NCBI GenBank assembly: GCA_903847405.1
Contig: CAINDP010000012.1
Location: 1-63,186, forward strand
Direction of reading: 5' to 3'
DNA: 63,186 bases
DNA from: an uncultured Myxococcales bacterium
GTDB lineage: Bacteria; Myxococcota_A; UBA9042; DTJE01
Shown here: positions 51,946-63,186 of the stretch, in pieces
How positions within the stretch are numbered: the stretch's first letter is position 1
Layout: each line of letters starts with the position of its first letter
Notes under the pieces: model-generated
What the model saw: the letters and a program-made list of their open reading frames with translations, nothing else
What the model was told of the DNA's origin: nothing
The model's database searches: none
Translations under genes and position numbers: made by a program

Positions 51946-52376
51946 CGACCGCCCCCGTTCGGCCTGCCCTGGGGTTGGGCCAGCATGGCGGGTCCGAAGG
52001 CGTCGGGCAGCAGGGCGGCCAGTCGGCTGCGGACCACGCGTCCGTCGTCGGCCGCCAGCAGAACTTCCATGTCGGGCCCGAACTCCGACAGCGCCTGGCG
52101 GCACATGCCGCAGGGGGCGCAGGGATCGCCTTGCGCGGTGACCACGGCCACGGCCTCCAGGACGGTTTCGCCTGCCACGATGGCGGCCGCGATGGCGCCC
52201 CGCTCGGCGCACATCGACACGGGATACGAGGCGTTTTCGACGTTGCAGCCCGCGTAGACGGCCCCGGAAGCGCCCCGGACCGCGGCGCCGACCCGGAATC
52301 CCGAGTAGGGAGCGTAGGCGTGTGTCAGCGCGGCGCGCGCCGCTGCGACCAGATCGACCAGCCCGTCGTCGGTCAT
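51942..52376 (-). CDS. cdd: Cytidine deaminase
   Basis: Zinc deaminase of 144 residues converting cytidine and deoxycytidine to uridine and deoxyuridine. Substrate block YSGFRVGAAV, catalytic/zinc CAERGAI (Cys and Glu) and PCAPCGMCRQ with the other two zinc Cys. Length fits the homotetrameric class. The start overlaps the purine nucleoside phosphorylase stop, and the stop overlaps the amidohydrolase start, both by ATGA, so the three are translationally coupled in a salvage operon. Confidence 0.95.
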   Translation of the reverse strand: MTDDGLVDLVAAARAALTHAYAPYSGFRVGAAVRGASGAVYAGCNVENASYPVSMCAERGAIAAAIVAGETVLEAVAVVTAQGDPCAPCGMCRQALSEFGPDMEVLLAADDGRVVRSRLAALLPDAFGPAMLAQPQGRPNGGGR

Positions 52377-53275
52377 GGCAGGACCTCCAGGGTGGATTCG
52401 AAGAGCGCGGCCAGGCGTGTCCCTGCGGACGCACCGACGTCCTCCACGTCCTCGTGGCACAGGGGGCCGGTGCCCAGGCCTGCGGCCATGTTGGTGATCA
52501 CGCTGACCGCGCCGACGCGCATGCCGGCGTGGCGGGCCGCGATGACCTCCGGGACCGTGGACATGCCCACGGCGTCCGCACCCAGGGTGCCGAACGCGCG
52601 AATCTCGGCGGGGGTTTCGTAGGTCGGTCCGCTGACGGCCAGGTAGACGCCGGTGTGGACGGGGGTGCCCAGGCCGACGGCGGCCGACGCGAACGCGGCG
52701 CGGACCTCGGGGTCGTAGGCGGTCGTCATGTCCGGGAAGCGCGGGCCCAGGGCCTCGACGTTCGGGCCCCGGAGGGGGTTGGCGCCCATGAGGTTGACGT
52801 GGTCGGAAATCACCATCAGGTCGCCCGGCCGGAACGCGGGGTTCAGGCCGCCTGCCGCGTTGGAGGCCAAAAGGTACGGCGTTCCCAGCAGGGCCATCGC
52901 ACGGACGGCGGCGCAGGCGACATCGAGGTCGTGGCCCTCGTAGAAATGGATGCGGCCGGCCAGGACGGCCACGCGTCGGCCTCGCAGCATGCCCAGCACC
53001 AGGACGCCCCGGTGGCCCGGAACGGTCGGCTCCGGCAGGCCCGCGGCGGCGAAGGGCAGGGTGACGATGGGCTCGACGCGAGCCTCGAAGCCCGAAAGCC
53101 CCGAACCCAGCACGACCGCGATTTCGGGCAGCCACCCGCGCTGGACCAGGCGTGCCTCCCGCAGGATCGTCCGCGCGGCCAGGCAGGCCCGGGCCAGGCC
53201 CGGGGACGCGACCGGGTCGGACTCGATGGCCCCGATTCGACGGGTGACGGCCTCGAACCTCTCCGACATTTCCAC
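52373..53275 (-). CDS. Purine nucleoside phosphorylase (trimeric type)
   Basis: Phosphorolytic enzyme of about 300 residues cleaving inosine/guanosine to base and ribose-1-phosphate. Family blocks: VLGSGLSGF (phosphate), GHRGVLVLG, GRIHFYEGHD, ASNAAGGLNPAF, SGPTYETPAEIRAF, GADAVGMSTVPEVIAARH and VSVITNMAAGL with the base-binding Asn. I placed the start at the GTG 53275 because GGAGG is five bases away; an ATG two codons later has spacing that is too long. Head of the salvage operon, divergent from the TPR lipoprotein gene. Confidence 0.94.
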   Translation of the reverse strand: MEMSERFEAVTRRIGAIESDPVASPGLARACLAARTILREARLVQRGWLPEIAVVLGSGLSGFEARVEPIVTLPFAAAGLPEPTVPGHRGVLVLGMLRGRRVAVLAGRIHFYEGHDLDVACAAVRAMALLGTPYLLASNAAGGLNPAFRPGDLMVISDHVNLMGANPLRGPNVEALGPRFPDMTTAYDPEVRAAFASAAVGLGTPVHTGVYLAVSGPTYETPAEIRAFGTLGADAVGMSTVPEVIAARHAGMRVGAVSVITNMAAGLGTGPLCHEDVEDVGASAGTRLAALFESTLEVLP

Positions 53276-53303
53276 GGGTGCCTCCACGGGGGTTTCCGCG
53301 TGG

Positions 53304-53309
53304 ATTCTA
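53304..53309 (-). promoter_or_regulatory. Candidate -10 box (TAGAAT) of the nucleoside salvage operon
   Basis: TAGAAT on the minus strand lies 28 nt before the chosen GTG start. No convincing -35 at 16-18 nt. Confidence 0.33.
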
Positions 53310-53328
53310 CCCCGGATCCCGTCCCCGC

Positions 53329-53357
53329 TTGTAATCGCGGGGCGAACGGACCATGAT
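53329..53357 (+). promoter_or_regulatory. Promoter of the TPR lipoprotein gene
   Basis: TTGTAA (-35), 17 bp spacer, CATGAT (-10), 27 nt before the ATG. Divergent from the salvage operon. Confidence 0.45.
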
Positions 53358-53384
53358 CCCGCCACCCGAAGGGAGTTGGTGAAC

Positions 53385-54158
53385 ATGCGGATCGGGATCG
53401 GAACCCTGATGATCGTGGCGATGGCGTGCGCGTCCTGCTCGAAAACGCAGGAGACCCCGGTCGCCCCCATGAAGAAGGTCGAATCCGCCGCCAGCGGCCT
53501 GCCGATGGCAGCGCCGAAGCCCGGCGAGGCGCCTTCCAAGGCCATGGGCGAGGCGCCCGGCGACGCGGTGCACCAGGGCGCGATGGGCATGCCCGGCGGC
53601 GTGCCGAACGACGACGTGCACAAGGCCGCGAAGGGCGGCATGGGCGGCATGGCCGACATGGGCGGGCAGAACGGCCTTCCCGGGCACGGCATGGTCCAGG
53701 ACGCGGGCCAGGCGGACGCGGGCGATCCGGCCCTGCGGCTGACCGGCGTCGGCAGCAAGGCGGAAATGGACAAGGCCCTGAAGGACATCGAGGGCGACGA
53801 CGCGAAGAAGAAGTTCGAGGCCGCGTTCCGCTGGACCTTCGCCGTGGACAAGACCAAGCGCGACGTGGAAAAGGCCCGGGCGAACTACGAGGACATCCTG
53901 CGGACGCAGCCCAAGGCGGCGCCGTGCTACCGCGGTCTGGCCTACGCGGCCCTGTCCCGGGGATTCGACATCGACGGCGCCGTCGTGGCCTACAAGAAGG
54001 CCCTCGAGGTCAAGCCGGACTACGCCGAGGTCCACTACGCACTGGCGTTCCTGTTCGCCGGGTCCGACCTGGACAAGGGCCGTGACCACCTGAAGAAGGC
54101 CCTGGAACTGGGCATGCCCGACGAGCAGGGCCTCAAGAAGGTCTACAACCTGCCATAG
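53385..54158 (+). CDS. TPR-repeat lipoprotein with Met/Gly-rich linker
   Basis: Lipoprotein of 257 residues. Signal peptide with lipobox ACASCSK, then a 90-residue low-complexity linker rich in Met, Gly, Ala and Pro (MGMPGGVPNDD, GGMGGMADMGGQNG). The C-terminal 140 residues form about three TPR units (FEAAFRWTFAVDKTKRDVEKA, YRGLAYAALSRGFDIDGAVVAY, EVHYALAFLFAGSDLDKGRDHL). It probably mediates protein interactions in the envelope. Followed 39 bp later by pyrK, with which it may share a transcript. Confidence 0.82.
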   Translation: MRIGIGTLMIVAMACASCSKTQETPVAPMKKVESAASGLPMAAPKPGEAPSKAMGEAPGDAVHQGAMGMPGGVPNDDVHKAAKGGMGGMADMGGQNGLPGHGMVQDAGQADAGDPALRLTGVGSKAEMDKALKDIEGDDAKKKFEAAFRWTFAVDKTKRDVEKARANYEDILRTQPKAAPCYRGLAYAALSRGFDIDGAVVAYKKALEVKPDYAEVHYALAFLFAGSDLDKGRDHLKKALELGMPDEQGLKKVYNLP

Positions 54159-54197
54159 ACCCGTGATATACGGAGCCCCGTCGTACGGAGGAGTCCC

Positions 54198-54980
54198 GTG
54201 ACCACGGATCAGTATGTCGTGATCGGGAATCCGGCGGTGGCGCCGGGCATCAACCGCCTTTCGGTCGGTCCGTCCGGTGTGCCCGTGGCCGCGAACCCGC
54301 AGGCGCCCACGGCGGTCCAGCCGGGCCAGTTCCACATGCTGAAGACCCTCGCGCCCGAACCCCTGCTGCCCCGGCCGATCAGCATCCACGAGGTCGCGGG
54401 CGACGTCCTGTCGTTCCTGTACGAAATCAAGGGGGCGGGGACCCGGAACATCGCGGCGCTGGCGCCCGGGGACCCGATCCGGGTGACGGGACCCCTGGGG
54501 CGCGGATTCGACGTGGACGGGCTGACCGGGCGCATCCTGCTGGTCGCGGGCGGCATCGGCATCGCGCCGTTCCGTTACCTGGCACGCATGCTGGCCGAGG
54601 CCGGGCGGACGCAGGTGACGCTGGCCGCGGGCTTTCGCGGCCTGCCCTACGGCATCCAGGACTTCCAGCCGTTCATCCCCGACGTCCGGATCGCGACCGA
54701 GGACGGCAGCGCGGGCGTGAAGGGGCGGGTGACGGCCCTGTATGACCCGCGGGACTTCGACGTCGTGGTGGCGTGCGGCCCCGTGCCCATGATGCGGGCG
54801 GTCCAGCAGGGTTGCGTGCAGGCCGGGACCCGCGGGGTCCTGTCCATGGAGGCCCGGATGGCCTGCGGCATCGGGCTGTGCCTGGGCTGCACGATCCGGA
54901 CGACCACCGGCATGCGCCGCGTCTGCACGGACGGGCCGGTCTTCCCGGGCGAGGAGGTATTCTTCGATGCCCATGCCTGA
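54198..54980 (+). CDS. pyrK: Dihydroorotate dehydrogenase B electron-transfer subunit PyrK
   Basis: Iron-sulfur flavoprotein of 260 residues passing electrons from PyrD to NAD+. FAD-binding LLPRPISIHEV, nucleotide loop VAGGIGIAPFRYL, ACGPVPMMRAV, and a C-terminal [2Fe-2S] site C-x4-C-x2-C...C in MACGIGLCLGCTIRT...RRVCTDGP. GTG start behind GGAGGAG. Overlaps pyrD by 14 bp, so a PyrK-PyrD (type 1B) complex is made from one mRNA. Confidence 0.95.
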   Translation: MTTDQYVVIGNPAVAPGINRLSVGPSGVPVAANPQAPTAVQPGQFHMLKTLAPEPLLPRPISIHEVAGDVLSFLYEIKGAGTRNIAALAPGDPIRVTGPLGRGFDVDGLTGRILLVAGGIGIAPFRYLARMLAEAGRTQVTLAAGFRGLPYGIQDFQPFIPDVRIATEDGSAGVKGRVTALYDPRDFDVVVACGPVPMMRAVQQGCVQAGTRGVLSMEARMACGIGLCLGCTIRTTTGMRRVCTDGPVFPGEEVFFDAHA

Positions 54981-55887
54981 CGCCACGCCGGATCTGTCGG
55001 TCGAACTGTGCGGCCTGAGGCTGTCGAACCCGGTGATCGCCGCGTCCGGATGCTTCGGCTTCGGCGAGGAAATCGTGCCCTTCTACCACCCGTCCGTCCT
55101 GGGCGGGTACTCCACCAAGGGACTCACCCTGCGCCCGCGGCAGGGCAACGGCGGCATCCGGCTGCACGAAACGCGGGGCGGGCTGATGAACTCCATCGGC
55201 CTGCAGAACCCCGGCGCGGCCGCCTTCGTCCAGACGATCCTGCCCCGCATCCGCAGCCTGACCCCGTGCCTGATCGCGAATGTCGGCGGGCACGAAATCG
55301 CGGACTTCGTCGAGGCGGTGGGCCTGATCGCGGCGGCCGACGTCGACATGATCGAACTGAACATCTCGTGCCCGAACATCAAGTGCGGGGGCCAGGCCTT
55401 CGGGAACCGGGCCGGGGACGCGGCGTCGGTCGTCCGCGCGGTGCGGCCGGTCTGCGGCAAGCCCCTGATGGTGAAACTGTCGCCCAACGCGGACGACCTG
55501 GTCGCCGTGGCCCGGGCGTGCGAGGAGGCCGGCGCCGACGCCCTGTCCCTGGTCAACACGTTCAACGCGCTGGCCATCGACGTGCACGCGCGGCGCGCCG
55601 TGTTCGACAACGTGACGGCGGGGCTGTCCGGGCCGGCGATCCTGCCCATCGCGTTGCGGATGACGCGCGACGTCGCCCGGGCGGTGAAGATCCCGGTCGT
55701 CGGGATGGGCGGCATCGAAACAGGCGAGGACGTGGCCGCGTTCATCATGGCGGGGGCCCGGGCCGTCCAGGTGGGCACGGCGGGGCTGGTGCGGCCCGAC
55801 GCGCTGCCCGTGATCATCGACGAACTGGCCCGGTTCATGGCCCATGAAGGAATCGCGAACCTCGCCGAGATTCGCGGGATCGTTTGA
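54967..55887 (+). CDS. pyrD: Dihydroorotate dehydrogenase, class 1B catalytic subunit
   Basis: FMN enzyme of 306 residues oxidising dihydroorotate to orotate. Conserved blocks: NPVIAASGCFGFGEE, KGLTLRPRQGN, NSIGLQNPG, ELNISCPNIKCGGQ (with the catalytic-base Cys of the class 1 enzymes), VKLSPNADDL, SLVNTFNALAID, GMGGIETGEDV and GARAVQVGT. The Cys base and adjacent pyrK identify class 1B. pyrE follows after 53 bp. Confidence 0.96.
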   Translation: MPMPDATPDLSVELCGLRLSNPVIAASGCFGFGEEIVPFYHPSVLGGYSTKGLTLRPRQGNGGIRLHETRGGLMNSIGLQNPGAAAFVQTILPRIRSLTPCLIANVGGHEIADFVEAVGLIAAADVDMIELNISCPNIKCGGQAFGNRAGDAASVVRAVRPVCGKPLMVKLSPNADDLVAVARACEEAGADALSLVNTFNALAIDVHARRAVFDNVTAGLSGPAILPIALRMTRDVARAVKIPVVGMGGIETGEDVAAFIMAGARAVQVGTAGLVRPDALPVIIDELARFMAHEGIANLAEIRGIV

Positions 55888-55940
55888 TCCCCAGCCCAAC
55901 TATGATCGGTCGGGACGGGCTCCCGGCCCGGGAGGAATCG

Positions 55941-56507
55941 ATGGAATCGCCGACGCTGGAACTGCTGAAGGAATCGGGCGCCCTGCTGGAAGGACACTTC
56001 CTGCTGTCCTCGGGGCGGCATTCGAACCGGTACTGCCAGAGCGCGCTGCTGCTGTGCCAGCCCGACCGGGCGGCCCGGGCGCTGGCGCCGGTCGCCGAAC
56101 AGGTCCGGGGCCTGGGAATCGACCTCGTGGTCGGCCCGGCGCTGGGCGGGATCGTTCCGGCCTACGAACTGGCCCGGCAACTGGGCGTCCCGGGGATCTA
56201 TGTCGAGCGCGAGGGCGAGGCGCTGGCCCTGCGCCGGGGCTTCGTCATCGAGACCGGCTGGAAGGTCCTGATCGCCGAGGACGTGGTGACCACGGGCAAG
56301 TCGACGCTGGAAACGGCGGTCCTGATCGAGGCTGCGGGCGGCATCGTGGTTGGCGTGGGCTGCATCGCCGACCGTGGCGAGTCGAAGCTGCCCTTCCCGG
56401 TCTTCTCGGGCACGAAGCTGTCGATCGAAAGCTTCCCGGCCGACGCCTGCCCCCTCTGCGCGAAGGGCATGCCCTGGGTGAAGCCGGGGACCCGCAAGCA
56501 GCCGTAG
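55941..56507 (+). CDS. pyrE: Orotate phosphoribosyltransferase
   Basis: Converts orotate and PRPP to orotidine-5'-phosphate; 188 residues. FLLSSGRHSNRYCQSA near the N-terminus, PAYELARQLGVP, and the PRPP motif VLIAEDVVTTGKST are diagnostic. The C-terminal CPLCAKGMPWVKPGTRK form is found in one PyrE subgroup. GGAGGAA before the ATG at 55941. Completes a pyrK-pyrD-pyrE unit; pyrF is not in the window. Converges on the PLD lipoprotein with 20 bp between stops. Confidence 0.95.
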   Translation: MESPTLELLKESGALLEGHFLLSSGRHSNRYCQSALLLCQPDRAARALAPVAEQVRGLGIDLVVGPALGGIVPAYELARQLGVPGIYVEREGEALALRRGFVIETGWKVLIAEDVVTTGKSTLETAVLIEAAGGIVVGVGCIADRGESKLPFPVFSGTKLSIESFPADACPLCAKGMPWVKPGTRKQP

Positions 56508-56527: not shown

Positions 56528-57703
56528 TCACGGCACCGATTCGGACCAGATCTTCTCGAAGGTCGTGATGGCGTCGGCGGTCACGCCGGGAACGTCCACG
56601 ATCGCGCCGGCCTCGTGATTCGAATTGAAACTGCTGTAGACCCAGTTCCCCGAATGCACCGCCACCACGTCGTCGGTAACCAGCATCTTGGTGTGCGTGA
56701 GGGTGCCCACGTCGTTGTACCGGACCTGGACGCCGGCGGCCGACAGGCGCTGGCCGCAGGCCTTGTTCTGGTCGTTGACGTAGGTCTCGTAGGCGGTCGA
56801 CTCCAGCACGACGCGCACCTCCAGGCCCCGCGCGCGGGCGTCGATGACGGCCTGGGCGATGTCCCCGACGTCCCCGCTCCAGTCGTCGCTCATGTGGTAC
56901 AGCACCAGCAGCACGCGCCGGGTGGCCGCCGCGAGGTGCGTGCGGGCCTGGGCGTCGTACTGGCCGTCCCCGATGGGCGTGACGCCCGAAACCGGGATGG
57001 CCGGGATCGCGGCGGTCTGTGCCGGCTTGGACCAGAGCGCGTCGGCGTAGGCGGCGAACGGCTCGGCCAGGGCCGCCCCGTCCAGGGCCAGGTTCGCTTC
57101 GTGGTTGTAGTTCAGTGACGAAGTGGACAGGTTTGTCGATCCGACCAGGGCCCGTGTCCGGTCGGCCACCACCAGCTTGGTGTGCAGGGTCCGGGAGGCC
57201 CCGTCCAGCCGGGCCTCGATCCCGGCGCCTGTCAGCTCCGTCAGCCGTGGGTCGTTCTTCTCGACGTCGGATTCCATCAGCACCTGGACGCGGACCCCCC
57301 GGGCAGCGGCCCGGACCAGCGCGTCGCGAACGGTGTTCGGCGCCCAGCCGTCGATGAATTCCAGTTCGACCATCTGCAGGGACGTCATCGCGCCGTCGAC
57401 CAGGCCTACGATGGCCGACAGGGCGGCCTTGTCCGTCACCAGGCGAACGGGCGTCGGGGGCGTGCCGGGATCGGTTCCGGGGTCGGTCGTGCCGGGGTCG
57501 GCCGGCGTCGCGTCGAATCCCTCGTCGTCGGGCGCGGGCCGGTCCTGGTCCCCCGGATCGAACGATTGGACGTCGCGGCCGGCGTCGGGGACGTCGCGGC
57601 TGCCGGAGTAGTCGGGTCGCTCGATGAGGTTGCCGCCGGGGGTCGTGCAGGCGAAGGTGACGCAGATCAGGAGGAGAAGGGGGAACGCGTGGATGCGGGC
57701 CAT
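56528..57703 (-). CDS. Phospholipase D-like lipoprotein
   Basis: Lipoprotein of 391 residues with two HKD catalytic motifs: HTKLVVADRTRALVGSTN and HTKMLVTDDVVAVHSGN. Signal peptide with lipobox VTFACTT, then an Asp/Pro/Gly/Thr linker of about 70 residues (DVPDAGRDVQSFDPGD, TTDPGTDPGTPP). Each half has the usual AAARGVRVQVLMES and ARARGLEVRVVLES strands. It is an outward-facing PLD-fold hydrolase; lipid or nucleic acid could be the substrate. Starts two bases after rlmN, so it is likely coupled to it, with no obvious functional link. Confidence 0.88.
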   Translation of the reverse strand: MARIHAFPLLLLICVTFACTTPGGNLIERPDYSGSRDVPDAGRDVQSFDPGDQDRPAPDDEGFDATPADPGTTDPGTDPGTPPTPVRLVTDKAALSAIVGLVDGAMTSLQMVELEFIDGWAPNTVRDALVRAAARGVRVQVLMESDVEKNDPRLTELTGAGIEARLDGASRTLHTKLVVADRTRALVGSTNLSTSSLNYNHEANLALDGAALAEPFAAYADALWSKPAQTAAIPAIPVSGVTPIGDGQYDAQARTHLAAATRRVLLVLYHMSDDWSGDVGDIAQAVIDARARGLEVRVVLESTAYETYVNDQNKACGQRLSAAGVQVRYNDVGTLTHTKMLVTDDVVAVHSGNWVYSSFNSNHEAGAIVDVPGVTADAITTFEKIWSESVP

Positions 57704-57705
57704 GG

Positions 57706-58797
57706 TCACCCCTTTCGGTCGGGTGATTCTCCCGCAGGAAGGCCCTTCCCGTCCAACTGTCCGCAGGCCGCGCCGATGTCCAGGCCGCGGCTGGTGCGCA
57801 CGCTGACGCGATGGTTCTTGTCCGCCAGGAAGCGCCGGAAGGCCTTGATCGCGGTGTCCGACGAGCGCCGGAAGGGCGCCCCCGGCCAGGGGTTGAACGG
57901 GATCAGGTTCACCTTGTTCGGGAACAGCGCCAGCATCCGCGACAGGCGGCGGGCGTCGTCGATCGAGTCCCCCACGCCGTCCATCAGGGTGTACTCGATG
58001 GTGAACGAGTGGCCGTGGGGAAGGGGCAGGCGGACCAGCGTGTCCACCAGGGCCTGCAGGTTCCCGTGGCGTCGCGACGCCGGGACGACGTCGCCGCGGA
58101 CGTCGTCGGTGGTCGCACACAGGGAGATCGCGATGCTGACGCCGGTGCCCGACTCCACCACCTCGGCCAGGCGATCCAGGATGCCCACGGTGGACAGGGT
58201 GGTCCGCCGCTGCGCGACGCGAAGCCCCTCGCGATGCGTGATGATCCGGACCGCCCGCAGGACCGCGTCCAGGTTGTCCAGCGGCTCGCCCATGCCCATG
58301 AAGACGACGTTCGAGATGCGGGAACCGGCAGGCAGCAGGCGCGCGGCGGCCTGGACCTGGCCCACGATCTCGGATGCCGTCAGGTTGCGCTGGAAGCCCA
58401 GGGTCGCGGTCAGGCAGAAGCGGCAGCCCATGCGGCACCCGACCTGGCTGCTGATGCACAGGGTGACGCGATCCGCCGACGGCATCAGGACCGCCGAATA
58501 GCGCCGGCCGCCGCCCGCGTCGAACAGCAGCTTCTGCGAGCCGTCGACCGAGTCGAGGACCTCGACGGGCTCCAGGCGCGTCAGGCACGCGTTCGCGGTC
58601 AGCCACTCCCGCAGGTCCTCGGGCAGGTTGCTCATGGCGTCGAAGGATGCCGCGTCCTTCCGGTGGATCCACTGGAACACCTGCATGCCGCGGTAGGACG
58701 GCGCACCCATGGGCCGCAGCAGCGCGCTGATCTCCTCGGGGCTGCGGTCGAACAGATCGATGGGGGCGGCAACCTGGGGAGTGATCGGGGACGACAT
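57706..58797 (-). CDS. rlmN: Dual-specificity 23S rRNA/tRNA adenine-C2 methyltransferase RlmN
   Basis: Radical SAM methyltransferase of 363 residues acting on A2503 of 23S rRNA and A37 of some tRNAs. Cluster motif C-x3-C-x2-C in VGCRMGCRFCLTA, GMGEPLDNLDAVLRA, STVGILDRLAEV, and the methyl-carrying Cys in RTSRGLDIGAACGQL. N-terminal YRGMQVFQWIHRK is typical. Nineteen bp after the tandem QueD gene. Confidence 0.95.
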   Translation of the reverse strand: MSSPITPQVAAPIDLFDRSPEEISALLRPMGAPSYRGMQVFQWIHRKDAASFDAMSNLPEDLREWLTANACLTRLEPVEVLDSVDGSQKLLFDAGGGRRYSAVLMPSADRVTLCISSQVGCRMGCRFCLTATLGFQRNLTASEIVGQVQAAARLLPAGSRISNVVFMGMGEPLDNLDAVLRAVRIITHREGLRVAQRRTTLSTVGILDRLAEVVESGTGVSIAISLCATTDDVRGDVVPASRRHGNLQALVDTLVRLPLPHGHSFTIEYTLMDGVGDSIDDARRLSRMLALFPNKVNLIPFNPWPGAPFRRSSDTAIKAFRRFLADKNHRVSVRTSRGLDIGAACGQLDGKGLPAGESPDRKG

Positions 58798-58816
58798 GGG
58801 GCCTCCGGGGCGGGGG

Positions 58817-59668
58817 TCAGGAAACGGGCGCCTCCGCGCGTGCGGAGGCATCCAGGGCCTCGAGCAGGGTGACCTGGACGCTGGTCGCGCGCAAGGCGGC
58901 GATCTCGGGCCGGGCGGCGATCCGGGCGGCTGCCCAGGCGGCCAGGGCCTCGGTCGTCGTGTTGCCGACGTCCAGCACGGCACAGTCGGCCCGGGGCAGC
59001 GTGACGGTTTCGTCCCCGATCACCAGCGCCAGGGAATCGCCTCGTTCTTCCAGGCGACCCACCGCAGGGCGGCCGGCCAGGACGATCTTGTGGTCCAATT
59101 CGGCGACCAGGGCCTCGGCGCATCCGCGAACGATTCCATCGATGTCGCCGGGCACGCCGACGGCCAGGGTCACGACCACCGTCATCCGGTAGTCGTGGCC
59201 GTGGAGCGGCTCGCGGCCGGCGGGCGGCAGGACCAGAAGGTGCGCCGCGGAAAAGACCAGGCCGCCGACCGTGACGCGGACTTCCGTGGCCGCCGGGACC
59301 TCCCCGCGACCGGGGCGCCAGGTGCAGCGGGACGTCGGGCTTTCGTGGACCGTCACGGCGGACACGCCGACCACCCGGGCCGCGAGGCGGTCGAACAGGT
59401 AGCGGGCGAGGTTTTCGGACGTGGGGTTCGCCAGGCCGGGCAGGGCGTTCAGCACCCGGTGGTCCAGTTCCGCGATGACCTGCCGCGCGACCACGGCGAG
59501 GTCGCCGAAATCCATGACCCAGCCCAGGACCGGATCGACCTCGCCTTCGACCGCGACCTCGACCTTGAACAGGTGCCCGTGGACACGCGAGCACTTGTGG
59601 TCGGGCCCGACCTCGGGGAGGTGGTGCGCCGCCTCGAAGGTGAACTCCTTGACGATCTCTGCCTTCAC
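58817..59668 (-). CDS. Tandem QueD/6-pyruvoyl-tetrahydropterin synthase-like protein
   Basis: 283 residues comprising two PTPS-type domains. The N-terminal half (1-125) is a recognisable QueD: FEFAAHH-type start (FTFEAAHHLP), CSRVHGHLFKVEV with zinc His and catalytic Cys, DFGDL, LDHRVLN, NPTSENLARYLF and VTVHESPTSRCTW. The C-terminal half (126-283) repeats the pattern with FSAAHLLVLP, LHGHDYRMTVVV and LDHKIVL, but lacks the Cys before HGH and ends in a longer variable helix. Single-domain QueD proteins are about 120-140 residues. QueD makes 6-carboxy-tetrahydropterin on the way to queuosine; what the second domain does is unknown. GTG start. Confidence 0.88.
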   Translation of the reverse strand: MKAEIVKEFTFEAAHHLPEVGPDHKCSRVHGHLFKVEVAVEGEVDPVLGWVMDFGDLAVVARQVIAELDHRVLNALPGLANPTSENLARYLFDRLAARVVGVSAVTVHESPTSRCTWRPGRGEVPAATEVRVTVGGLVFSAAHLLVLPPAGREPLHGHDYRMTVVVTLAVGVPGDIDGIVRGCAEALVAELDHKIVLAGRPAVGRLEERGDSLALVIGDETVTLPRADCAVLDVGNTTTEALAAWAAARIAARPEIAALRATSVQVTLLEALDASARAEAPVS

Positions 59669-59694
59669 GGGAACCCCCGAACCGGACGGGGGGA

Positions 59695-59722
59695 ATCATC
59701 CACTTCGGCCGGGAAAAGTCAA
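59695..59722 (-). promoter_or_regulatory. Promoter of the tandem QueD-rlmN-PLD operon
   Basis: Minus strand TTGACT (-35), 16 bp spacer, GATGAT (-10), about 26 nt before the GTG start. Confidence 0.5.
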
Positions 59723-59747
59723 CGAAGTGCCCGTTGTGTCAAGGGCC

Positions 59748-59764
59748 AAAGCCCCTCCAGGGGC
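59748..59764 (-). terminator. Weak hairpin after the RlmD-type gene
   Basis: GCCCC/GGGGC stem with loop tgga, followed by three T on the minus strand, immediately after the TAG. It is short and poor in T, so termination efficiency is doubtful. Confidence 0.38.
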
Positions 59765-59765
59765 C

Positions 59766-61046
59766 CTATGTCCGTACCAGCCGCGCCACCGTTTCCAGGT
59801 GGAACGTCTGGGGGAACATGTCCACCAGCACCAGGCGGTCCAGGCGGAACCCCGCTGCCAGGAAGGGCCCCAGGTCCCGGGCCAGGGTGGCCGGGTCGCA
59901 GGCGCACAGGACGACGCGGGCCACGGGCAGGGATGCCAGGGCGCGGGCAGCCGGGGCGCCCATGCCGGTGCGGGGCGGATCGGCCACCACGACGTCCGGT
60001 GGGGGCGTCACCAGGTCGGGCGCCCCGGCGACGTCCTCGACCCGGGCCGCGCGCAGGCGGACCTCCAGGCCCCGGGCCTTCACTTCAACCCCGGCGCGTT
60101 CCAGGGCCTCGCGGTTCAGCTCGACCGCGGTGACCCGGGCCCCGGCGAGGGCCATGGGGACGGTCAGGTTGCCGGCCCCGGCGAACAGTTCCAGCACCCG
60201 CGTTCCGGGAACGATCCCCGCAAGGTCCCGCACCGTGGCGGCCAGGGCCGGGTTCAGGGCCAGGTTCGCCTGGGTGAAGCCCCGGGGGTCCAGGGTCAGC
60301 GCCGTCCGTCCCCCGGCGCCGTCGTCGGTGGGAAATGCGATCTGCGTCGCTCCCGCCGCGGCCCAGTGGGCGCCGCCATGCCCCTTCGAGCTGGCCAGGC
60401 TTCCCGCGACGCCGGGTGTCGCCGCCAGCAGACGCGCGGCCGCCGCCGGGTCCCCCAGGTCGCCCCGGGCCACCACGACGATGCCGCCGTCGGCGCCGGC
60501 CACGGGTTCCAGCGTGACGGGTCCCCGGGGGTGCAGCCGGGCCAGGGCGTCCCGCAGGCGCGGGATCGCGTCGGACACCGGCGTCATCGCGATGGGGCAG
60601 GCGTCGGGTTCGACGAGGTCGTGGGAGTGCCGGGCGAAGAAGCCCAGGCGCGCCCCGGCGCCCGCCGGGCCCCCGTGCAGCTCGATGCGGCAGCGGTAGG
60701 ACCACGGGTTCCCGGACACGATTTCCGGCGTCGGCGAGTCGATCTTCGCGATTCGCCGCAGGACCTCCTGGAGGAGGGCCGCCTTCAGGGTCGGCTGTCG
60801 GTCGGGCGCGATGTGCTGCAGGTGGCAGCCGCCGCAGCGGCCGTAGATCGGGCAAGGCGGGGACACCCGATCGGGACCGGGTTCCAGGACCGACACCAGG
60901 CGCGCCTCGACCAGCCCGGGGCGCTCCCGTTCCGGGGTGGCTTCCACGACGTCTCCCGGTGCGGTCAGGGGAACCAGCCAGACCCGTCCGTCGACGCGTC
61001 CCAGTCCCATCCCCAGGTGTACCAGGCGCTCGATGGTCACCTTCAC
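59766..61046 (-). CDS. 23S rRNA uracil-C5 methyltransferase, RlmD/RumA type
   Basis: SAM-dependent rRNA methyltransferase of 426 residues with an N-terminal TRAM domain (VTIERLVHLGMGLGR...LVPLTAPGDVVE) and an iron-sulfur site C-x5-C-x2-C in CPIYGRCGGCHLQH. The catalytic domain has the SAM loop VLELFAGAGNLT, VVADPPRTGMG and CDPATLARDL with the nucleophilic Cys. RlmD methylates U1939; whether this protein is RlmD, RlmC or TrmA cannot be decided by sequence alone, though the TRAM plus Cys cluster favours RlmD/RumA. GTG start with GGAGG seven bases upstream. Confidence 0.9.
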   Translation of the reverse strand: MKVTIERLVHLGMGLGRVDGRVWLVPLTAPGDVVEATPERERPGLVEARLVSVLEPGPDRVSPPCPIYGRCGGCHLQHIAPDRQPTLKAALLQEVLRRIAKIDSPTPEIVSGNPWSYRCRIELHGGPAGAGARLGFFARHSHDLVEPDACPIAMTPVSDAIPRLRDALARLHPRGPVTLEPVAGADGGIVVVARGDLGDPAAAARLLAATPGVAGSLASSKGHGGAHWAAAGATQIAFPTDDGAGGRTALTLDPRGFTQANLALNPALAATVRDLAGIVPGTRVLELFAGAGNLTVPMALAGARVTAVELNREALERAGVEVKARGLEVRLRAARVEDVAGAPDLVTPPPDVVVADPPRTGMGAPAARALASLPVARVVLCACDPATLARDLGPFLAAGFRLDRLVLVDMFPQTFHLETVARLVRT

Positions 61047-61066
61047 GATGGGCCTCCCGCGGGGCT

Positions 61067-61094
61067 ATTGTAGGGCCTACCCGCCATTGGGCAA
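61067..61094 (-). promoter_or_regulatory. Promoter of the RlmD-type gene
   Basis: Minus strand TTGCCC (-35), 16 bp spacer, TACAAT (-10), 20 nt before the GTG start. Confidence 0.5.
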
Positions 61095-61142
61095 CCGGAC
61101 TCGGTCGACGAACCCGGTCTGGCGCCGGTGCGACTCGATGAC

Positions 61143-61148
61143 TACAAT
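61143..61148 (+). promoter_or_regulatory. Candidate -10 box (TACAAT) of the FmdB gene
   Basis: TACAAT lies 43 nt before the ATG. No clear -35 at the right distance. Divergent from the RlmD-type promoter. Confidence 0.35.
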
Positions 61149-61191
61149 GCCCGCGGCCGGCGGCGGCCGGCACGAAGCCCGGGGAGGTCCC

Positions 61192-61422
61192 ATGCCGATG
61201 TACGAGTTCCGGTGCCTGGACTGCGACACCGATTTCGAGGACCTGGTTCCCTCAGGCACCGAGGCCTGGCCCTGTCCGCAGTGCCACCAGCGCAACGTGC
61301 GCCGGCTGGCGTCGGCCGCCGCCTTTTCGGTGGGCGGGAAGATGACCACCACGGCGAAGTCCGACTGCGCGGGCTGTGCGTCGGGACAGTGCGGTTCCTG
61401 CAACTGCGACCACCACCACTAG
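61192..61422 (+). CDS. FmdB-family zinc-ribbon protein
   Basis: Small regulatory-type protein of 76 residues. N-terminal PMYEFRCLDCDTDFE and CPQCHQRNVRRL form a CxxC...CxxC zinc ribbon typical of FmdB. The C-terminal third is rich in Cys, Gly and His (CAGCASGQCGSCNCDHHH) and may bind further metal. FmdB proteins are widely conserved but poorly understood. Either of two in-frame ATGs (61192, 61198) follows GGGGAGG; the first was taken. Ends three bases before the convergent M49-like gene. Confidence 0.85.
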   Translation: MPMYEFRCLDCDTDFEDLVPSGTEAWPCPQCHQRNVRRLASAAAFSVGGKMTTTAKSDCAGCASGQCGSCNCDHHH

Positions 61423-61425
61423 GAC

Positions 61426-63141
61426 TCACTCCTCCAGCAGCGCCCGTCCCAGCGTGTAGATCGGGCGGATGTCCACGGGCACCGCGGACACGCGCTTCAG
61501 GGCGCCCTGGACCTCGTCGGTCATGGCGCCGTAGGTCTTCAGGAGGGTCTTCGCCCCCTCGTAGTCGCCCTCGGCCTGGACGATCAGCAGCGCCCGGGCC
61601 AGGTCCCGCATCGCCGGCTCGAACTTCGCGTGGTCGACGCCGAAGGAGCCGTTCGCCGCGTCGTACGTCACGGCGCCGGCCTTCCGCAGCCAGTTCAACT
61701 GCATCATGTTCGCGACGCCGTGGGCCTCGCCGATGCCGAACCGGATGGAGCGGAACAGGCCCGCCAGGAACGTGGCCTCCATCGTTTCCCCGACAAGGGC
61801 CGGCAGCACGCCCTTGCGGACCAGGATCAGGCTGTTCAGGACGCCCAGCACGTCGGCCTTGCACTCCTCGATGCCCGAGTAGGTTTCCCGCAGGGCCAGG
61901 TTGACGGTGGTGGACGAGCCGTCGGGTTTCGCCAGGATGCCCGGGCCCAGGCCGTGGCTGACCTCGTGCAGCAGCACGAAATTGAAGAAGGCGTCGAAGG
62001 ACACGCGGCCCTGCAACGCGGGCGCCAGCAGGATCTTCGCGATGGGCACCAGGCTGCGGGCGAACTTGGCCTGGCCCACGTTCTTCAGGAGGACCTTCTT
62101 GGACCCCCGGGCCGTCCGCACGCGCTCGTCGTTGGGCAGGTTGAACGCCGTCGTCTGGGTGCCCGCGGCCGTGTCGCCCGCCGCGTACACGACCTGTACG
62201 ACGGCGATGGGCGAGGACTTGCCGCGGCTGAAGTTCTTGTGCCGGTCGTCGATGGGCAGGGCCGCCTCCAGTTCGTCCAGCAGCCCCTCGACCACTGCCA
62301 ACTTCCGGCTTTCGTCCGCGTCCTTCACGGTCACGAAGGACTCGAACGCCGCCTTCAGGTTCATCAGGCGGTCCTCATACACCTCGTAAGGCCCGATGAC
62401 GACCTCGATCGGGGACGCCTTGTCGGGCGCGGCCGTCCCCAGGTCCATCCAGGCCAGGTCGCTGGGGTAGTAGTCGTTCGACGTGAATGCCAGGGCGCGG
62501 GACTCCAGGTACTTCGCCAGCACCGGATCGCGGGTCCGGGCCGCGGCATCGCGCAGGAAGCGCGCCGCCTGCACGAGGTCGTCCCGGTACTCGATGGAGT
62601 AGGGCACCGCGATCAGCCGTTCACCATCGCGGCGGATCACGGTCACGGGCGACTCGAAGGCCGCCCGGTCCCCCGGGTGGGCCGCCAGCCAGGCCTCGAA
62701 GGCGTCGCGGGTCAGGTCCTCGGGATAGAACGTCGCGCCCTGGGGCTTCGCCTTCGTGCCGTAGAAGGGCTCGAAGTCGTCCAGCCGGTCCCAGGGACCC
62801 GCGTTCAGGTCCACGTACTCCGCCAGCCGCTTCCCGGCGGCGTCGGTCCGGGCCTTCAGCCGTGCTGCGACCTCCAGGCCCTCGGCCGAGGCCTGCCGCC
62901 AGAACAGCCGGTTCATCAGGGCGCTGGCCTTCACCAGCGGCGCCAGCACGGCCCGGTCCTCCGCGGACAGGGTGGCCGGATCCACGGTGATTTCGACGTC
63001 GGCAAACCGCGCCCGCTTTGCTTCCAGTTGTTTCCGGTCCGGCTCCTTCATGCTCCCTCCCCGGGTGGCCCCCGTGGTCGCGCATCCCACGGCCAGAGGC
63101 CACAGGACTGCTGCCAGGATCAACCGACGCCTTGTCGTCAC
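61426..63141 (-). CDS. M49-like zinc metallopeptidase lipoprotein
   Basis: Lipoprotein of 571 residues, lipobox AVGCATT. The zinc site is His392-Glu-Val-Ser-His396 (LLHEVSHGLGP) with the downstream acidic motif E425ECKADV. The HExxHGxGP plus E-E-x-x-A-D pattern resembles the dipeptidyl peptidase III/M49 group, particularly the nudix-associated branch with HExxH instead of the classical HExxGH. The rest of the sequence, including VLLKNVGQAKFARSLVPIA and ETMEATFLAGLFRSIRFG, fits that fold. GTG start with GGAGG upstream. Envelope-located aminodipeptidase activity is a reasonable guess. Confidence 0.82.
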   Translation of the reverse strand: MTTRRRLILAAVLWPLAVGCATTGATRGGSMKEPDRKQLEAKRARFADVEITVDPATLSAEDRAVLAPLVKASALMNRLFWRQASAEGLEVAARLKARTDAAGKRLAEYVDLNAGPWDRLDDFEPFYGTKAKPQGATFYPEDLTRDAFEAWLAAHPGDRAAFESPVTVIRRDGERLIAVPYSIEYRDDLVQAARFLRDAAARTRDPVLAKYLESRALAFTSNDYYPSDLAWMDLGTAAPDKASPIEVVIGPYEVYEDRLMNLKAAFESFVTVKDADESRKLAVVEGLLDELEAALPIDDRHKNFSRGKSSPIAVVQVVYAAGDTAAGTQTTAFNLPNDERVRTARGSKKVLLKNVGQAKFARSLVPIAKILLAPALQGRVSFDAFFNFVLLHEVSHGLGPGILAKPDGSSTTVNLALRETYSGIEECKADVLGVLNSLILVRKGVLPALVGETMEATFLAGLFRSIRFGIGEAHGVANMMQLNWLRKAGAVTYDAANGSFGVDHAKFEPAMRDLARALLIVQAEGDYEGAKTLLKTYGAMTDEVQGALKRVSAVPVDIRPIYTLGRALLEE

Positions 63142-63158
63142 TTCAACCTCCTGTCGAG

Positions 63159-63186
63159 GAAAATGGGGACAGACACCAATTTCCGC
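63159..63186 (+). repeat. REP-like GGGGACAG motif at the right window edge
   Basis: GGAAAATGGGGACAGACACC and eight further bases match the outer 28-bp end of the elements at 24780-25145 with only a few substitutions. The window ends here, so the rest of the element and any transposase cannot be seen. Confidence 0.75.

Follow-up and report, generated by a model that had tools for sequence, protein, structure and literature searches.

A fused QueD and PTPS-III protein as a putative branch-point enzyme of 7-deazaguanine and folate synthesis in Myxococcota without detected FolB

The locus and the encoded protein

On the minus strand of the window (the whole stretch of DNA that was analysed, 63,186 nucleotides), a gene at 58817..59668 was found to encode a protein of 283 amino acids in which a PTPS-I (QueD) domain is fused to a PTPS-III domain. 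The open reading frame runs from a GTG start codon at 59668 to a TGA stop codon at 58817, and no coding for the fused protein was found on the plus strand of 58817..59668. Domain 1 (residues 1-118; 59315..59668, minus strand) is of the QueD/PTPS-I kind and displays the motif C26-S-R-V-H30-G-H32, LDH at residues 68-70 and E109. Domain 2 (residues 127-283; 58820..59290, minus strand) is of the PTPS-III type, with the motif E153-P-L-H156-G-H158, H143, LDH at residues 191-193, E240 and E270. The two are connected by a linker of about residues 119-126 (59291..59314, minus strand), the length of which varied between the homologues in the alignment.

A Pfam scan of the whole protein identified two PF01242 (PTPS) stretches (E 2.5e-46) and no other family up to an E-value of 1, and an identity as QueF was rejected accordingly. 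The halves were then scanned separately. The N-terminal half scored 124.2 bits (E 3.5e-36) and the C-terminal half 37.1 bits (E 3.6e-9) against PF01242, of which the gathering cut-off is 22.4 bits. An earlier note on this DNA had described two PTPS-type domains in tandem, and this description holds, as each half exceeds the cut-off by itself. In the AlphaFold model, which was computed from a 28-row alignment (mean pLDDT 91.6, pTM 0.74), both halves were confidently folded and the linker was weak, with the block of residues 121-130 presenting the lowest values (mean pLDDT 62).

The fused gene is flanked by two genes for RNA methyltransferases, both on the minus strand. The rlmN gene (23S rRNA/tRNA methyltransferase; 57706..58797; TIGR00048, 348 bits against a cut-off of 290) starts 19 nt downstream and is probably in the same operon as the fused gene. 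An rlmD/rumA-type RNA uracil-C5 methyltransferase gene (59766..61046; TIGR00479, 214.7 bits against a cut-off of 183.55) is located 97 nt upstream. Among the loci of 11 relatives, one of which ends just upstream of the fused gene (L033) and another just downstream (L040), eight have an rlmD match no more than 600 nt upstream, and eight have an rlmN match no more than 160 nt downstream. Further along the window, at 52373-56507, inspection of the translations by eye indicated purine nucleoside phosphorylase and cytidine deaminase genes on the minus strand and PyrK-, PyrD- and PyrE-like open reading frames on the plus strand, which together form a nucleotide cluster.

Domain 1 is a QueD/PTPS-I domain

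The residues were compared in an alignment of 13 fused proteins, 12 of them from the 13 genomes of the host's family (G008 had no match) and the thirteenth from a different family in its order. The PTPS-I/QueD signature is given as CxxxHGH in PMC5041015, and domain 1 carries this motif together with the zinc-binding histidines. Residues H15, C26, H30, H32, D69, H70, T83, E85 and E109 were identical in all 13 proteins. The claim of the earlier note that the QueD-type zinc and catalytic residues are complete in the first half is thereby upheld for H15, C26, H30, H32, D69, H70 and E109.

The N-terminal half also passed the cut-off of the QueD equivalog model TIGR03367 (103.9 bits against 89.25), and it was the only half to do so. 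In the structure comparison, the first 120 residues of the model superposed on E. coli QueD (4ntn) with Z 20.1 and an rmsd of 1.1 Å over 119 residues, at 46% identity. These profile, residue and model comparisons identify domain 1 as a textbook PTPS-I/QueD. As TIGR03367 labels the whole protein QueD, a folate function of the second half would go unnoticed.

Domain 2 is a PTPS-III-type domain with glutamate in place of cysteine

The C-terminal half scored 31.0 bits against TIGR03367, below the cut-off. Its active site reads R152-E153-P-L-H156-G-H158, which places Glu153 where PTPS-I has its cysteine. The earlier note had remarked that the second half keeps the HGH motif and LDH and lacks the upstream cysteine. 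The missing cysteine and the retained HGH were both confirmed, while the substituting glutamate had been overlooked and the acid of LDH proved to vary (D192 is Asp in 8 of the 13 fused proteins and Glu in 5). E153 was present in 13/13 fused proteins and in all 21 rows when eight stand-alone relatives were added. H143, E153, H156, H158, H193, T239, E240 and E270 were likewise identical in every fused protein. A DF segment that is found in the stand-alone relatives has been lost from domain 2.

According to PMC5041015, the signature of PTPS-III is ExxHGH; domain 2 has this motif instead of CxxxHGH and keeps the zinc histidines and the acid-histidine dyad. Its best sequence match in the PDB was Plasmodium PTPS (E 1.5e-6), with E153 facing the malarial glutamate, and PDB titles name E37 of P. 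vivax PTPS as the catalytic residue. Plasmodium PTPS was also the best structure match, superposing on residues 127-282 over 155 residues at an rmsd of 2.2-2.3 and Z 19.4-19.5. The second half therefore matches the PTPS/T-fold both by profile and by structure, so the outcome that the earlier note had named as refuting its reading, the lack of any such match, did not occur. Domain 2 shares with malarial PTPS (PDB 1y13, 2a0s, 3m0n, 3lze) the fold, the glutamate in place of cysteine, the zinc histidines and the same long insert ahead of the NTTTE segment; it differs in its low identity (18-19% across the structural alignment) and in being fused to a QueD domain.

The malarial enzyme has been characterised experimentally. 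PMC2229834 reports that it forms two products from one substrate, namely 6-hydroxymethyl-dihydropterin and the conventional PTPS product. By mutagenesis, the Cys-to-Glu change was found there to confer the synthesis of 6-hydroxymethyl-7,8-dihydropterin, by which dihydroneopterin aldolase is bypassed, and the reverse replacement of Glu38 by Cys in the P. falciparum enzyme abolished the formation of this product (PMC2229834). The same paper describes E. coli PTPS (QueD) as unable to make it.

Other PTPS types were considered for both domains and rejected. In the PTPS-I/III hybrid, the motif CExxHGH occurs within one domain; here, C26 is followed by S, A, F or H, and E153 is preceded by R or E. 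In PTPS-II (biopterin type, CxxxxxHGH), a cysteine would be expected at the position that domain 1 fills with H24 and domain 2 with A150. Taken together, the residues and the matches designate domain 2 as a PTPS-III-type domain with a conserved active-site set of its own, belonging by its sequence to a different branch of the PTPS family.

Origin and distribution of the fusion

All carriers of the fusion are Myxococcota: 12 of the 13 family genomes have it, as does the only other family of the order that was sampled. Outside the order, a match was obtained in 37 of the 38 genomes of the class that were searched. QueD-type and domain-2-type genes were adjacent in 22 of the 24 class genomes having both. 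In these 22 pairs, the genes lie on one strand with queD first, and the match ends are at most 495 bases apart and mostly fewer than 100; at one locus (L097), the queD and PTPS-III genes overlap by four bases. In the remaining two genomes (G014 and G031), the matches are on different contigs, and the QueD-type match of G031 is weak. Stand-alone relatives of the second half, for which the earlier note had proposed a survey, thus exist beside queD.

In a maximum-likelihood tree of 55 rows, a split with 98/96 support separated the C domains, the stand-alone PTPS-III proteins and Plasmodium PTPS from QueD, the N domains and a planctomycete group; the rows for Plasmodium and for E. coli/Pseudomonas hold partial sequences, and a warning of meeting long branches was given by the program. 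A recent duplication of QueD as the source of the C domain was rejected, as the C domains fall on the Plasmodium and PTPS-III side of this split. Since the C domains branch apart from QueD and the relatives have neighbouring separate genes, the sequences point to a fusion of two old, different neighbours. On this evidence, the fused protein arose from a neighbouring pair of queD and ptps-III and not from a doubling of QueD.

The search for fusions outside the order covered 70 relatives, 207 genomes of the phylum and one scan of a genome collection with the pattern REP[IL]HGHD, which fusions with other motifs would escape. A mobile origin received no support. By tblastn, no record among 72,556 plasmids covered 80% of the fused protein (199 partial matches), and none did so among 50,697 phages (21 partial matches).

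Several other PTPS arrangements were observed during these searches. Neighbouring pairs of partial PTPS matches occur in other families of the phylum (G064:C10:2081-2778, G060:C22:11669-12318, G068:C6:19042-19758 and G095:C274:1682-2281) and perhaps represent another tandem PTPS arrangement. G017 carries a second PTPS-III copy (C45:44218-44706, 156.8 bits) apart from its queD pair. A set of loci mostly from Planctomycetota (L043-L069, e.g. L043:4950-5354) encodes single-domain PTPS proteins with REPLHGHDW at the ExxHGH position and, among the rows listed, NLN in place of the LDH dyad; six of these proteins grouped with QueD and not with PTPS-III in the tree. In another family of the class, a gene for a TMEM260-like membrane glycosyltransferase (PF11028; L096:6195-8183) follows queD/PTPS-III, and by eye a similar gene does so at L097, L099 and L101.

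Proposed function

The fused protein is likely to be a bifunctional branch-point enzyme, in which two specialised active sites would share out 7,8-dihydroneopterin triphosphate, one supplying deazaguanine synthesis and the other folate synthesis. The domain types, the active-site residues, the pairing of the genes and the absence of FolB alongside FolE, FolK and FolP are observed directly, and from them we infer both reactions, the sharing of the substrate and the physiological roles. FolE would make 7,8-dihydroneopterin triphosphate, the substrate common to both domains. Domain 1, with Cys26 as the base and zinc held by three histidines, would convert it to 6-carboxytetrahydropterin, the QueD product that enters 7-deazaguanine/queuosine synthesis. 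Domain 2 has Glu153 in the position of the cysteine and would form 6-hydroxymethyl-7,8-dihydropterin, which FolK and FolP would carry on to folate, and in this way the absent FolB would be replaced. As the two products enter different pathways, the fusion would not provide a channel of consecutive steps. It could instead set the ratio of both activities or, on the boldest view, allow the QueD domain to take up a second product of the kind that malarial PTPS is known to release. In the fused form, both pathways would be tied together at their common substrate.

The earlier note had left the choice between a bifunctional protein and an intramolecular pseudo-dimer of one enzyme. The bifunctional reading is favoured, because the second half is of the PTPS-III type with its own conserved active-site set and belongs to a different PTPS branch. 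The pseudo-dimer is not supported as the primary explanation, as the tree does not present the C domain as a duplicate of the N domain and the relatives have separate adjacent genes.

Queuosine genes and the role of domain 1

QueE was clearly detected in 10 of the 13 family genomes and partially in one more. Tgt was found in all 13, and QueA lies beside tgt in the host's own genome, whose queuosine gene loci are on contigs C75 and C242 (G000; L105 and L116). No full-length QueC was detected in any of the 13 family genomes (best match 32 bits); among the 70 relatives, full-length QueC occurred in only eight (89 to 247 bits). QueF also had no real match in the 13 family genomes, where three weak hits fall inside FolE matches. 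The survey thus reveals a gap, in which QueD, QueE, Tgt and QueA are present without QueC or QueF, and the incomplete pathway downstream of domain 1 counts against the proposed function.

A substitute for QueC was sought beside queE by comparing 18 stretches all against all, and no neighbour family other than queE itself occurred in more than 5 of the 18. An Rfam scan of positions 57600-63186 of the window with E up to 1 gave no riboswitch match, and there was no Rfam match at the gathering threshold near tgt-queA, queE, folK and folE of the same genome. An EamA-type transporter gene is located by queA-tgt in this genome (L105:9548-10567) and may import a precursor of queuosine.

From this gene content, it is possible that preQ1 is salvaged while QueD and QueE serve something else, or that a route free of QueC and QueF leads from 7-carboxy-7-deazaguanine to preQ1. 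In the first case, domain 1 would act outside queuosine synthesis, feeding with QueE another 7-deazapurine or pterin product. We consider this possible, if rather doubtful, and it is compatible with the function proposed for domain 2. It is in line with the gap described above, given Tgt in every family genome, with the transporter gene adjoining tgt-queA, and with the rule, in PMC10570037, that tgt, queA and queG/H without queF are scored as preQ1 salvage. Against it stands the conservation of domain 1 and QueE, which would be superfluous for pure salvage.

QueD accepts 6-pyruvoyl-tetrahydropterin as a substrate. If domain 2, like malarial PTPS, made two products, 6-pyruvoyl-tetrahydropterin leaked by it could be converted by the QueD domain to 6-carboxytetrahydropterin and then lead to preQ1 without QueC/QueF. 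Such recycling seems improbable; if true, one polypeptide would supply folate and 7-deazaguanine synthesis without waste.

Folate genes and the absence of FolB

The profile search for FolB (PF02152) gave no match in any of the 13 family genomes, which are fragmented metagenome assemblies, nor in the one genome of the order's other family. FolB was found in 1 of the 38 genomes from the rest of the class and in 14 of the 18 from the rest of the phylum sample, amounting to 15 of the 70 relatives overall; the same search matched in 10 of 14 control genomes. FolK and FolE were each detected in 12 of the 13 family genomes and FolP (DHPS) in all 13. As FolK and FolP are present and FolB is absent, the family calls for a source of 6-hydroxymethyl-dihydropterin. 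Domain 2 probably explains folate synthesis without FolB in these bacteria, judging from its PTPS-III-type sequence, and the fusion would be a concrete answer to this question in the present group of Myxococcota.

The distribution was further examined in 207 genomes of the phylum, with 75 bits as the lower limit of a full PTPS-III match (the highest score below it was 38.5). PTPS-III was present in 56 genomes and FolB in 145; 45 genomes had PTPS-III only, 11 both, 134 FolB only and 17 neither. The two genes were anticorrelated (Fisher 4e-21, kinship ignored). As 37 of the 45 genomes with PTPS-III only belong to one class, that of the host, the correlation comes mostly from one lineage and is not independent evidence. 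Family f20 is a second, independent case by gene content: FolB is missing from each of its seven PTPS-III genomes, and PTPS-III is missing from the 10 genomes listed with FolB. As 11 genomes of the phylum carry both genes, PTPS-III cannot be regarded as a strict replacement of FolB.

This co-occurrence would suit a reading in which domain 2 serves another pterin route (monophosphate/methanopterin-like, or biopterin), with folate obtained through an unrecognised aldolase or by uptake, and PMC5041015 describes PTPS-III as serving tetrahydromethanopterin synthesis in some Archaea, perhaps on a monophosphate. The need for 6-hydroxymethyl-dihydropterin in a family with FolK and FolP and the separation of the two genes in f20 both argue against such a route, which we regard as quite unlikely.

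Conservation and selection

Among the 12 family members, the mean pairwise identity was 44% for the C domain and 72% for the N domain, which indicates that the C domain is the faster-evolving of the two. The dN/dS values between the window and its closest relative were about 0.016 for the N domain and 0.068 for the C domain; this was the sole pair with both domains measured, as only three of the 14 comparisons of single domains, made in 7 genome pairs, gave a value. In this one genome pair, both halves are under purifying selection.

The faster evolution of the C domain, its lost DF segment and the Glu at D192 in 5 of the 13 fused proteins count against the proposed function. The first two of these and the precedent of bimodular QueF, described in PMC5372742 as tandem T-folds with one degenerate module, would suit a pseudo-subunit, idle in catalysis or regulatory in role, by which the QueD hexamer and its interface active sites are completed. 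We hold this very improbable, since idleness needs none of the three zinc histidines, Glu153, His193, Thr239, Glu240 and Glu270 that are invariant in 13/13 proteins, and since stand-alone relatives exist and FolB is missing.

Comparison with known systems

Each domain of the fused protein is of an already known kind; no mention of a pure PTPS-I fused to a pure PTPS-III was found in the open-access literature searched. Domain 1 has its fold, motif and residues in common with E. coli QueD (PDB 4ntk, 4ntm, 4ntn, 3qna). Known QueD is a single domain, whereas here a different second PTPS domain is located in the same chain. The fusion can further be compared with the PTPS-I/III hybrid, which PMC5041015 describes as a CExxHGH protein using a single site for folate and queuosine. 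The hybrid is also one gene with the same two outputs as proposed for the fusion; in contrast, the fusion splits the motifs over two specialised domains, and CExxHGH occurs in neither. Beside separate genes and a hybrid with one site, the fusion would be a third way for the PTPS family to serve folate and 7-deazaguanine synthesis. It also offers a natural construct for a side-by-side study of the cysteine and glutamate chemistry.

T-fold proteins assemble into rings. As in the fusion, two T-folds are contained in one chain in bimodular QueF and urate oxidase, and V. cholerae QueF aligned across both domains of the model (178 residues, rmsd 5.5, Z 10.1). In bimodular QueF, according to PMC5372742, two T-folds per chain can rearrange the ring assembly, and the active site is common to both modules of the subunit; in the fusion, by contrast, each domain holds a full residue set of its own.
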